This document shows, piece by piece, positions 8,466 to 17,170 of a stretch of DNA of 36,546 nucleotides. The notes beneath the pieces were generated by a model. The model had not been told where the DNA came from. It did no database searches and worked only from the letters and a program-made list of their open reading frames with translations. The stretch is taken from positions 1 to 36,546 of the forward strand of contig CACIVL010000003.1 of NCBI GenBank assembly GCA_902590125.1. Reading direction: 5' to 3'. The position numbers and the translations under genes are program-made. Each line of letters starts with the position of its first letter. The first letter of the stretch is position 1. This DNA is from an uncultured Pelagibacteraceae bacterium (GTDB lineage Bacteria; Pseudomonadota; Alphaproteobacteria; Pelagibacterales; Pelagibacteraceae).

Positions 8466-10538
8466 ATGTTTAAAATATCAAAACAAGAAATAGAAGTTGA
8501 CGGAAAAAAAATAACTTTAGAAACAGGAAAGATAGCAAGACAAGCAGATGGTGCGGTTATTGCGACTTCCGGTGAAACAGTTGTAATAGCAACTGCTGTT
8601 GGAGCAAAAAATGTTAATCCAGATGTAGATTATTTTCCATTACAGGTAAGTTATCAAGAAAAATACTATGCAGCAGGAAAAATTCCTGGTGGATACTTTA
8701 AAAGAGAAGCAAGACCTACTGAAGCTGAAACATTAATTTCAAGATTAATAGATAGACCTATTAGACCATTGTTTCCTGAAGAATTTAGAAATGAAGTGCA
8801 AGTTTTACCAACAGTACTTTCTTATGATGGAATAAATGAACCAGATATATTAGCAATTATTGCATCTTCAGCAGCTTTAGCAATATCAGGAATGCCTTTT
8901 CAAGGGCCTGTTGGAGCATCAAGAGTTGGGTATATAAATGATAAATATGTTTTAAATCCAACAAAAGAAGAAATTGAAAATTCAAAATTAGATTTAGTAG
9001 TTGCAGGAACTAAGGACGCAGTACTTATGGTAGAATCTGAAGCTTCAGGTTTGTCAGAAAAGATTATGTTAGATGCTGTTAAATTTGGTCATGAAAAATT
9101 TGTTCCAGTAATTGAGGCAATTGAAAAGTTAGTAAAAGATTGTGCAAAAGAAAAGTGGGTAATTGAAAAGAGAAACTTATCAGATTTAGAAAAAAAAATT
9201 TCAGAAGAATTTACAAAAAATTTAAAAGAAGCATTTGCTATTAGAGATAAACAAAAAAGATCTAATTTAATTGCTGAAATCACAACAAAATGTAAAGAAA
9301 TGTTTGAAAAAGATGAGGCATATACTGATTTAGATGTCTTAATGGTTTTAAAAAAACTTGAAAAGAAAATTGTTAGAACTGATATTTTAAAAAATAAATC
9401 AAGGATTGATGGCCGTTCATTAACAGATGTAAGACAAATTAATTGCGAAGTTGGTCTTCTTCCAAGAACACATGGTTCTGCTTTGTTTACTAGAGGAGAA
9501 ACGCAAGCCCTAGTCACTTTAACATTAGGCACTTCTGAGGATGAACAGAGAGTAGAAAGTCTTGATGGATTAAAGCGTAATAGGTTTATGCTTCATTATA
9601 ATTTTCCACCATTTTCTGTTGGAGAAGTTGGAAGAATTGGAACAGGAAGAAGAGAAATTGGTCATGGAAAATTGGCATGGAGAGCACTTAAATCGTCTTT
9701 ACCAAAACAAGAAAAATTTCCCTATACTTTTAGAATAGTTTCAGAAATTACTGAATCAAACGGATCATCTTCGATGGCAACAGTTTGTGGATCTTCTCTA
9801 GCACTAATGGATGCAGGAGTTCCAATGAAAGAATCCGTGGCAGGAATTGCAATGGGATTAATTAAAGAAGGAAAAAACTTTTCAGTTCTTACTGATATTT
9901 TAGGAGATGAAGATCATTTGGGAGATATGGATTTTAAAGTTGCTGGAACAAAAGATGGTATTACTTCTTTGCAAATGGATATTAAAATAACTGGAATAAC
10001 TTTTGAAATTATGGAACAAGCATTATCTCAAGCTAAAGATGGTAGAATTCATATCTTAGATGAGATGGCAAAAGCATTAACTGCTTCAAGAAAAGCAGTT
10101 TCTAAATACACTCCAAAAATTGAAACTGTTATGGTAGATAAAAAAGATATTGCTGCAGTAATTGGAAAAGGCGGTGCAACAATAAGAGAAATTGTTGAAT
10201 TATCAGGAGCTAAAGTTGATGTAAAAGATACTGGTGAAGTAACTGTAGCGGCACCAGATGAAGAATCAAGACTTAAAGCTATGAACATGATTAAAGATAT
10301 TATCGCTAAACCTGAAATAAATAAAATATATAAAGGTAAAGTAATTAAGATTATGGATTTTGGAGCTTTTGTTAATTTTTTAGGTAAGCAAGATGGTTTA
10401 GTTCACATATCAGAACTTGCCACTAAAAGAGTAGCTAAAGTTTCTGATGTTGTTAAAGAAGGTGATGAGGTTACAGTTAAAGTAATTGGATTTGATAGAG
10501 GAAAAGTAAAACTATCTATTAAACAAGCAGTTGCTTAG
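8466..10538 (+). CDS. pnp: Polyribonucleotide nucleotidyltransferase (PNPase)
   Basis: RNase PH domains, KH ([15 protein letters not shown]) and S1 ([28 protein letters not shown]) motifs; follows rpsO. Confidence 0.97.
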
Positions 10539-10545
10539 TCAATTT

Positions 10546-10571
10546 GGGGCACCTGGCAACAGAACGCCCCT
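10546..10571 (+). repeat. Repeat A copy 1: GGGGCACCTGGCAACAGAACGCCCCT (5-bp GGGGC/GCCCC stem, 15-nt loop)
   Basis: Perfect 26-nt identity to 11833-11858; 8 nt after the pnp stop. Confidence 0.9.
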
Positions 10572-10628
10572 CTCTAATTTAATATTTTGTAGGTTTTATT
10601 TGGTTAATTTTAATCAAGATTGTTTTTG

Positions 10629-10647
10629 ACCGCACTAGTACCGCACT
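10629..10647 (+). repeat. Repeat B copy 1: ACCGCACTAGTACCGCACT (internal tandem of ACCGCACT)
   Basis: 17/19 match to 11756-11774. Confidence 0.8.
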
Positions 10648-10668
10648 GAAAAAGGTGAAATGTTTTAG

Positions 10669-11013
10669 CTATTCATACTCTGCTTTAAACGAATAAGGAT
10701 TTTTTTTAAATTCTTTTTCACATTTTTTAAAATTCATATTGAATTGATCATTCATGTGCATTTTATGTTTTAAAGATTTTGTACGATAATTTTCATAAAG
10801 TTCTACATTTCTTTTATGTTGTTTTATTCCAATTTTATCATCACTTGCAATGGCACTATCCAATAATTTTTGATACATTTTTTGTCTATCCCACCAATGA
10901 CCTGCAGTGGCTTGATCTGCACAATTCTCAATTGCTTTTGTATTTTTATCTTTATTTTGCTCGCAACTAGCTAAAAAAAAACAAAAAATAAAAATTCCTA
11001 AAAGCTTTTTCAT
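10669..11013 (-). CDS. Small putative lipoprotein, unknown function
   Basis: Signal peptide with lipobox FLASC, 114 aa; no family recognised. Confidence 0.7.
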   Translation of the reverse strand: MKKLLGIFIFCFFLASCEQNKDKNTKAIENCADQATAGHWWDRQKMYQKLLDSAIASDDKIGIKQHKRNVELYENYRTKSLKHKMHMNDQFNMNFKKCEKEFKKNPYSFKAEYE

Positions 11014-11040
11014 TTAATAAACTTTTTTTTGGTATTTATC

Positions 11041-11622
11041 TCATTCTTTGAGCAATAAAGCTAGATTATCAGATTCGGTTCCAACCCAGTCATTATCTAA
11101 AATTTTTTTAAATTCTTTTTTACGCTCCACTTCATCTTTTGAACCATTTATTAGTTTAAAGCCTAAAGTATTATATTTAAGTATTCTTAAAGCTTGTTTA
11201 TTTATTTTGTCATCGCGTTCTTCCAGTACATCATATTCATTTCCAAACCAGAATTTATTAAATTCATCAAGCAAAGCAGGATCATACCAATCTAGATATG
11301 TCATATAATACGCTAGCAAATAATAAATTCGATCTGACTCTGTAAGATTAAAATCTAAGTTTTTTTCAAAATTCCACGGATGAATTTTTTGTTCTATACT
11401 TTCTCGAAAGTGATTAAATAGTTGGTTTCTGTCTTCTCCGGAAATATCTTCATCAAAACTTTCAGACGAAAAATTTTTTTCTATAGAAGCAAAATATTCA
11501 TCTTTAGACATTTCTTGCTTATTTTTGGTATTATCAACCACTAAAGTTGGCTCTTGTTTATTTATTTCTTTACTCTTAATACCAAATAACCTGTTAATTA
11601 AATCTTTTAGAATACGTAGCAC
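11041..11622 (-). CDS. Hypothetical protein, unknown function
   Basis: 193-aa uninterrupted ORF, 27 nt upstream of and codirectional with the lipoprotein ORF; no family recognised. Confidence 0.65.
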   Translation of the reverse strand: MLRILKDLINRLFGIKSKEINKQEPTLVVDNTKNKQEMSKDEYFASIEKNFSSESFDEDISGEDRNQLFNHFRESIEQKIHPWNFEKNLDFNLTESDRIYYLLAYYMTYLDWYDPALLDEFNKFWFGNEYDVLEERDDKINKQALRILKYNTLGFKLINGSKDEVERKKEFKKILDNDWVGTESDNLALLLKE

Positions 11623-11755
11623 TTTATTTTATCTTTGGAGAATCCTTTATACATTATTTAACTTTATCATGACAGTTTAAAGTTTTTTTTGGTTAGATGG
11701 GGTAAATTTTAAATGTCAAGTGATAAAATAAAATTTTAAAAAAAATAAAAATTAA

Positions 11756-11774
11756 ACCTCACTTGTACCGCACT
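11756..11774 (+). repeat. Repeat B copy 2: ACCTCACTTGTACCGCACT
   Basis: 17/19 match to 10629-10647, same orientation. Confidence 0.8.
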
Positions 11775-11804
11775 CAGAGTTGAATTTTTCACTTTTCAAT
11801 TCAA

Positions 11805-11820
11805 ATTATTCGCGAATAAT
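11805..11820. repeat. Perfect 16-bp palindrome ATTATTCGCGAATAAT
   Basis: Self-complementary by inspection. Confidence 0.85.
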
Positions 11821-11832
11821 GGTACAAAGTTC

Positions 11833-11858
11833 GGGGCACCTGGCAACAGAACGCCCCT
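11833..11858 (+). repeat. Repeat A copy 2: GGGGCACCTGGCAACAGAACGCCCCT
   Basis: Perfect 26-nt identity to 10546-10571. Confidence 0.9.
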
Positions 11859-11889
11859 TAAAAAGTTAAAAAAATCCTTTAGACATTTT

Positions 11890-12675
11890 TTAGGAAATAT
11901 TTTTTGGATCAGGCATCCCTACTTTATTATAACCAGCATCTACATAATGAATTTCACCAGTAACGCCGCCTCCAAGATCGCTCAATAGATATAAAGCTGA
12001 ATTTCCAACATCATGGATATCTACGTTTCTTTTTAAAAATGAATGGTCTTCATTCCATTTATATAAAAATTTAGCATCTCCAATAGCTGAAGCCGCAAGA
12101 GTTTTAATTGGTCCTGCGCTTATTGCATTTATTCTAATTCCTTTTGCTCCCAAATCTCTTGCTAGGTATTTAACACTTGCTTCAAGTGCAGATTTACAAA
12201 CACCCATTACATTATAATTTGGAATAGCCTTATTAGACTCATAAGTTAAAGTAAGCATACTTCCACCTTTATTCATTATTTTAGAAGCTTCTTTTGCAAC
12301 CTCTGTAAATGAAAAACATGAAATTAACATACTTCTTAAGAAGTTTTCTCTTGTAGTATTTAAATATTCTCCTGATAGTTCTGATTTATCTGAAAAAGCA
12401 ACCGCATGAACAACAAAATCAATTTGGCTCCATTTTGATTTTATATCTTCAAAAAGTTTTGTTACTTCTTCTTTTTTTTCAACATCGCAACTAAATGTTA
12501 TATTTGAATTTAGTTTTTCTGCTAAAGGAATAACTCTTTTCTTTAATGCATCTCCAAGATAAGTAAATGCTAATTCTGCACCAGCTTCAGCTAATTTTTG
12601 AGATATACCCCAAGCAATAGACCTCTCATTTGCTACTCCCATTATTAAACCTTTTTTTCCTTTCATTAAGCTCAT
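11890..12675 (-). CDS. fabI: Enoyl-[acyl-carrier-protein] reductase (NADH)
   Basis: MKGKKGLIMGVANERSIAWGISQ, KYLARDLGAKGIRINAISAGPIKTLAASAI. Confidence 0.96.
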   Translation of the reverse strand: MSLMKGKKGLIMGVANERSIAWGISQKLAEAGAELAFTYLGDALKKRVIPLAEKLNSNITFSCDVEKKEEVTKLFEDIKSKWSQIDFVVHAVAFSDKSELSGEYLNTTRENFLRSMLISCFSFTEVAKEASKIMNKGGSMLTLTYESNKAIPNYNVMGVCKSALEASVKYLARDLGAKGIRINAISAGPIKTLAASAIGDAKFLYKWNEDHSFLKRNVDIHDVGNSALYLLSDLGGGVTGEIHYVDAGYNKVGMPDPKNIS

Positions 12676-14471: not shown

Positions 14472-14894
14472 ATGAAAAATAATAACGTTTTTTTAGAGAA
14501 ATTAAGGTCTTCAGGTTTAATACTGACTAAACAGAGAATAGAAATTTGTAAATTTTTGTTTGATAGAAAAGAAACTTTTCATTTCACAATTAATGATTTG
14601 CAAAGTATTTTAAGAAAAAGATCTAATGAAAAAATATCACTTGCAACAATCTACAACACTGTCCATACTTTTAAAAAAAAAGGTTTTTTAAAAGAAATTT
14701 TAATAAATAGTAATAGTAATAGTAATAGTAATTATTTTGACACAAATGTTTCAAATCACCACCATTTTTTCGATGAAAGCACTAATGAACTTATAGATTT
14801 AAAAGATAGTGATGTAGGTGATATAAAAATAAAAAAAAATATTACAAAAAAAAAAATTAAGTCCATAGAAGTTCTAGTTAGACTTGCAAAATAA
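14472..14894 (+). CDS. irr: Fur-family regulator, probably Irr (iron response regulator)
   Basis: Fur winged-helix (LTKQRIEICKFLF, ISLATIYNTVHTFKKKGFLKEI) and NHHHFFDESTNELIDL; located next to fabA, an Irr-associated neighbourhood in Alphaproteobacteria. Confidence 0.8.
   Translation: MKNNNVFLEKLRSSGLILTKQRIEICKFLFDRKETFHFTINDLQSILRKRSNEKISLATIYNTVHTFKKKGFLKEILINSNSNSNSNYFDTNVSNHHHFFDESTNELIDLKDSDVGDIKIKKNITKKKIKSIEVLVRLAK
14706..14732 (+). repeat. AATAGT hexamer microsatellite, 4.5 copies, encoding NSNSNSNSN in the Irr-like protein
   Basis: Direct reading of aatagtaatagtaatagtaatagtaat. Confidence 0.95.

Positions 14895-14950: not shown

Positions 14951-17170
<2,220 letters not shown>

Follow-up and report, generated by a model that had tools for sequence, protein, structure and literature searches.

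A 1.3-kb two-gene cassette with attachment-type ends at a copy of the tmRNA gene end between pnp and fabI of a SAR11 bacterium

SAR11 bacteria are among the most abundant bacteria of the ocean and have streamlined genomes. In an uncultured member of the Pelagibacteraceae (SAR11), of whose genome 698 kb was examined (about 56% complete), a 1.3-kb patch bracketed by nested direct repeats lies between the genes pnp and fabI, within a stretch of 36,546 nucleotides that is referred to here as the window. The original prediction had left two readings of this patch side by side, a small mobile or decayed island with att-like ends and a pair of structured RNA or terminator elements placed 3' of core genes. 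We asked which of the two applies, where the repeats come from and how the genes between them may have reached this position.

Structure of the patch and its empty site

The outer repeat A, of 26 nt, is present as two exact copies on the + strand, A1 (10546-10571) and A2 (11833-11858), which enclose the copies of repeat B, B1 (10629-10647, +) and B2 (11756-11774, +), identical at 17 of 19 positions. The A-B spacers calculated from these coordinates are 57 and 58 nt, and two minus-strand ORFs lie between the repeats. All of this agrees with the original prediction, including the common orientation of the copies, and neither repeat was recovered in dinucleotide shuffles (0 matches in 100 shuffles for A). 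B itself consists of two 8-mers of the ACCGCACT type at an exact 11-bp step, arranged as ACCGCACT-AGT-ACCGCACT in B1 and as ACCTCACT-TGT-ACCGCACT in B2, the putative left and right arm-site pairs. A motif common to the right end of many cassettes adjoins A2 (11805-11832, +) and is formed by the palindrome ATTATTCGCGAATAAT (11805-11820) followed by TACAAAGTTC (11823-11832).

The first of the two ORFs (10669-11013, − strand) encodes 114 aa with a lipoprotein-like N-terminus, MKKLLGIFIFCFFLASC; it gave no Pfam or PHROG match of weight, and weak relatives were found in four other genomes of the genus. The second (11041-11622, − strand), designated ORF193, encodes a 193-aa protein of unknown function whose predicted structure was of low confidence (mean pLDDT 63). 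Its relatives were restricted to two other genomes of the genus, 85% and 61% identical, at other A-flanked places. The suggestion that the patch is decayed was not supported for this locus, in which the two ends, the two arm pairs and the ORFs are all intact; several related cassettes, though, have degenerate left arms.

The left chromosomal flank is pnp (8466-10538, +), identified by sequence as a polynucleotide phosphorylase ORF of 690 aa, and the right flank is fabI (11890-12675, − strand), an enoyl-ACP reductase ORF of 261 aa. Farther to the right, a 737-aa ORF resembling a KatG-type catalase-peroxidase (14957-17170) was noticed beside a Fur-like regulator ORF (14472-14894), both by eye only.

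Comparison with the relative bearing the most similar fabI (99% at the amino acid level) revealed pnp, one A and fabI in this order, the island being absent and only a short stretch separating A from fabI. Both A copies of the window align to this single A, whose last bases differ, and the alignment gave 92.5% nucleotide identity for the left flank, from pnp through A1, and 93% for the right flank from position 11878 onward. A second filled/empty pair was found with G035, where an additional element separates A from a sodB-like gene; in G032 and G016 A directly adjoins the sodB-like gene, without that element. Furthermore, the left end, the arms and the ORF193 gene of the window were matched in genome G224 (86% over 137 bp and 92% over 722 bp), where the copy sits behind rnhA with another second gene and a lost right end, and in genome G270 an ORF193 relative is located in an element with other arms. 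From these placements, the window unit, or parts thereof, has occupied more than one A site. The predicted small mobile island with att-like ends is thus supported by the single-A empty site in a close relative, by the recurrence elsewhere of its left end together with its arms and ORF193, and by tens of islands with the same ends.

Origin of repeat A and the cassette family

Complete permuted tmRNA genes of relatives (Rfam alpha_tmRNA, 218-235 bits) terminate at A, and the 3' end of the same Rfam model also aligns to A2, with a score under the gathering cutoff. These sequence matches identify A as the 3' end of ssrA, the permuted tmRNA gene in this SAR11 genus, specifically its 3'-terminal, G+C-rich hairpin (GGGGC/GCCCC). 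This identification, like the resolution of B into two units 11 bp apart, goes beyond the original prediction, whose structured RNA or terminator element proved partly apt for the origin of A. The ssrA gene is absent from the examined ~56% of the window's genome, and the link to it runs through relatives. A reading of the patch as the remnant of an ssrA gene at pnp was discarded, there being no tmRNA body beside either A, and weak Rfam snoRNA-type matches inside the patch were taken as chance.

Allowing up to three mismatches, A was found in 32 of 61 genomes searched, the window's genome included, with 1 to 6 copies each; no third copy was detected at this threshold in the 698 kb (about 56%) available for the window's genome. 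Many of the copies end ssrA, and others are in tandem or follow pnp, rnhA or a gene of a small periplasmic type. Copies of A at unrelated gene ends had been named as evidence that would refute an island; several such copies do exist, but they act as insertion sites, with islands between them. The sequence ACAGAACGCCCC (10559-10570 in A1) is common to the island families seen. Since the bases upstream vary by family while ACAGAACGCCCC is constant, we place the crossover, by inference, most likely within this sequence or beside it. For A behind pnp, early secondary integration is the likeliest route, again by inference. Islands targeted to ssrA are expected to have a boundary repeat equal to the ssrA 3' end and to be located at ssrA itself; the window cassette has the former and not the latter, being at a secondary A site behind pnp.

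TACAAAGTTC plus A, derived from the right end next to A2, was used as a probe. With up to two mismatches it was present in 64 of 349 genomes of the genus (about 18%), and the exact probe was found in 85 GTDB genome stretches, all titled Pelagibacteraceae, Pelagibacterales or Pelagibacter. Analysis of 80 of these loci together with the window provided 84 right ends, for 67 of which the locus also contains a left core. The resulting 67 cassettes measure 403-3136 bp (median 1175 bp) and carry mostly one to three genes, and 36 of them adjoin ssrA by a simple context rule. Their cargo is oriented nearly always against the core (20,250 aa vs 1,407 aa) and includes endonucleases (GIY-YIG, HNH and others), restriction-type proteins, some of them MrcB-like, methyltransferases, pilin-like proteins and many proteins of unknown function. 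No integrase was present in 75 cargo proteins among the matches listed (the first 25 of 45 Pfam and 25 of 62 PHROG families). A 129-bp stretch by ssrA in G036 (L058:7191-7330) contains a right end and an arm-bearing left end but no cargo; it is either a minimal element or a deletion product.

Pairs of 8-mers at a lag of 11 were detected in 42 of the 67 left ends and 56 of the 67 right ends, with 0-2 at other lags from 6 to 20; pairs scoring below 7/8, degenerate or missing, accounted for 25 left and 11 right ends. The B pairs lie about 45-60 bp inside each end, in two offset classes one 11-bp step apart on either side (about 46 or 57 from the core on the left, about 50 or 61 from the right-end motif on the right). 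The arm words vary between cassettes (GGCACA, TACGGGAT, TTCGGAAT, GGTCGGC, ACTCGTCC, CCGCACT and others). Within a cassette, left and right words agree, with a total agreement of 613 compared with a permuted mean of 495 (sd 7.8), a value reached in none of 5000 permutations. This comparison should be taken as a guide only, without an exact probability, as the cassettes are not independent and include a few near copies. Given the lag-11 pairs and words that differ between cassettes and match within them, B looks like the arm-type sites of a tyrosine integrase, an inference from position and pattern alone, without binding data.

Proposed mobilisation by integrases encoded elsewhere

Altogether, we interpret the patch as a non-autonomous, CIME/CALIN-like integrative cassette mobilised by the integrases of ssrA-targeting, satellite-like elements, a reading to which we assign a probability of roughly 0.8. 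There is strong evidence that the patch is an inserted cassette with ends of the att type; its mobilisation in trans at the present day has good support but is an inference, excision not having been observed. On excision, the circle would carry an attP of the form B-58-A-57-B. Arms on both sides of a core are the usual arrangement, and by sequence alone the circular form would have the expected arm-type direct repeats on either side of the core. The integrase would act from outside the cassette, in trans or, once elements have accreted in tandem, in cis; its source would be larger ssrA elements with an integrase and a primase-like protein. Each integrase lineage would read its own 8-bp arm word, which would explain why words differ between cassettes and agree within one; the two ORFs would be passengers. 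Against mobility counts the fact that no excised circle, attP junction or movement has been observed.

Two larger elements adjacent to ssrA, L267 and L273, have cassette-type ends, a PF00589 tyrosine integrase at the left end and arm words similar to those found in some cassettes. At L267, ssrA is followed by the A core, an imperfect arm pair and a 332-aa integrase beginning ~100 bp inside; small ORFs and a 733-aa protein that matches DUF5906 and primase families occupy the interior, and a cassette-type right end lies 6.17 kb on. L273 starts as L267 does, with an integrase 52% identical to that of L267 and arms TTGGCGTCATGGTGGCGTCAC; a right end with related arms on another contig of the same genome (L306) may be the other half of this element. 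The right arms of cassette L068, TTTGGCGTCATGGTGGCGTCATTTG, have a word in common with L273. Only these two helper-type elements were found, and no one-to-one code between words and integrases can be proved from two.

Other candidates were rejected or remained unconfirmed. Remoter integrases (about 30%) have no A adjoining, several being located by tRNA-Met or tRNA-Leu. Extra integrases in G028, G001, G010 and G378 were discarded as helpers, having no A core nearby, and the only near-match, in G028 (L264:3602), is one base off the core and lacks the rest of A. No viral relative of the L267 integrase was confirmed, no viral contig with either of the two right-end motifs was found, and phage records with right end and core yielded only weak chance matches in unrelated phages. 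A looser core pattern was matched in eight viral contigs; the one inspected was high-GC, coding-like sequence, and the match was taken as chance. Exact A is present in eight viral contigs, and a permuted tmRNA gene was found in all four that were checked; A there being a tmRNA end, these copies were not accepted as helper evidence. The alphaproteobacterial-type permuted tmRNA genes ending in A lie at L035:10556-10850, L036:9767-10060, L039:1437-1728 and L041:3343-3644, one of these contigs being 243 kb long. Phages may in this way bring their own ssrA, and hence a further attachment site.

The alternative that survives best, although we consider it unlikely, is that the small islands are relics, that is, autonomous ssrA islands after loss of the integrase and core genes, none of which moves now. 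The two integrase-bearing elements with the same ends are possible parents, some cassettes have degenerate arms or lost ends, as the right end in G224, and the G036 stretch is reduced to ends only. However, left and right arm words stay in agreement while differing between cassettes, and the cassettes are compact units whose intact cargo points one way. In addition, many different cargoes share one end type and the same unit occurs at different loci; independent deletions would not be expected to yield such uniform units.

It is far less probable that a conserved chromosomal SAR11 tyrosine recombinase of ~325 aa moves the cassettes. A search for PF00589 proteins in 61 genomes of the genus identified mostly one recombinase per genome, of this size and often the only such protein found, but it is located among glycosyltransferase genes, away from A; none lay near A in the places compared by eye, and no PF00589 protein was found in the examined ~56% of the window's genome. 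In the one recombinase tested, the SAM-like core-binding domain starts at residue 19, with little room for an arm-binding domain, and so many different matched arm words would be unexpected from a single conserved enzyme. Its location resembles that of SAR11_0551, the 'probable phage integrase' in HVR2 (PMC2217521), and a conserved recombinase of ~320 aa, often the sole PF00589 protein found in a SAR11 genome, was noted among glycosyltransferase genes at L271:6644-7600. The weakest alternative, that A is a dispersed terminator or structured-RNA element spread by homologous recombination, with the genes between copies swapped likewise, has in its favour a hairpin found behind several genes, but we regard it as scarcely tenable since it leaves unexplained the arm pairs at fixed distance, the element-specific words, the common right-end motif and the integrase elements with the same ends.

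Relation to known systems and other A-bounded units

Returning to the cassette interpretation, its closest parallels differ in their parts. CIMEs (cis-mobilizable elements) of ICE families, for example in streptococci, are att-bounded cargo without an integrase, often in tandem. The term appears in PMC5704250 and PMC7563491. The window cassette meets the same criterion, with both att ends present and no integrase inside, and SAR11 cassettes share with CIMEs the bounding of cargo by the att sites of an integrative element and the frequent tandem arrangement; however, they are much smaller, are found at several secondary sites and differ in their arm words, and the search revealed no relative that is conjugative. 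The ssrA islands of Dehalococcoides are tandem, lie between direct repeats of the ssrA 3' end, of which a genome has several, and carry strain-specific cargo, some without the integration module, a six-gene module with a CcrB-like serine recombinase whose site lies in the tRNA-like T-loop (PMC2764846, PMC3146451). Repeats, tandem islands, strain-specific cargo and the occasional absence of the module are alike in SAR11, whereas the SAR11 side has tyrosine recombinases, a permuted ssrA end and ~1-kb units with arm pairs; no serine-recombinase integration module was found in the two cassette ORFs, and the window cassette is not of the Dehalococcoides type in this regard.

Integron cassettes and CALINs are likewise one- to few-gene units in one orientation whose integrase comes from elsewhere (reviewed in PMC11389934), but SAR11 ends consist of a duplex core plus arm pairs, and each unit has its own arms. 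The larger element L267, with its 6.17 kb, integrase and primase-like protein, resembles marine satellites (tycheposons, VEIMEs and PICMIs, named in PMC11389934 and PMC10803314); the cassettes, in contrast, are reduced to ends and cargo, and their ends were found in no viral contig. An early study of SAR11 hypervariable regions reported no clear integron-type signature (PMC2217521), and we found no account of such ssrA cassettes in SAR11 in the open-access literature, although an earlier description is not excluded.

The cassettes would give SAR11 a site-specific gain and loss of one to three genes at a time. A broader proposal, which we hold only tentatively and judge somewhat less probable than its opposite, is an integron-like SAR11 cassette system built from phage-type parts, in which a shared pool of mostly one- to three-gene units would use tmRNA-derived sites and be addressed by arm words to matching integrases. 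If it is true, rare helpers and common cassettes would constitute a gene-exchange route in abundant ocean bacteria. The arm words are also a natural data set on specificity change in integrase arm-binding domains, and they make helper assignment directly testable.

Further units bounded by A were observed in the genus. Five A copies in a row in G028 (L070:4945-11980) delimit at least four small islands arranged in tandem, and they bear the variant core of that genome's own ssrA, located on another contig. A second right-end family, with AATCAAGGGACGAGAA beside ACAGAACGCCCC, marks other islands at ssrA (L058:7320, L068:9644 and L072:8963) and was in no viral contig searched. Finally, a 343-bp single-gene unit encoding a small periplasmic-type protein lies between two A copies (L064:8614-8981 and L061:2352-2720), at ssrA in one genome and behind the right end of another island in the second, and genes related to that of this unit end in A in further genomes.
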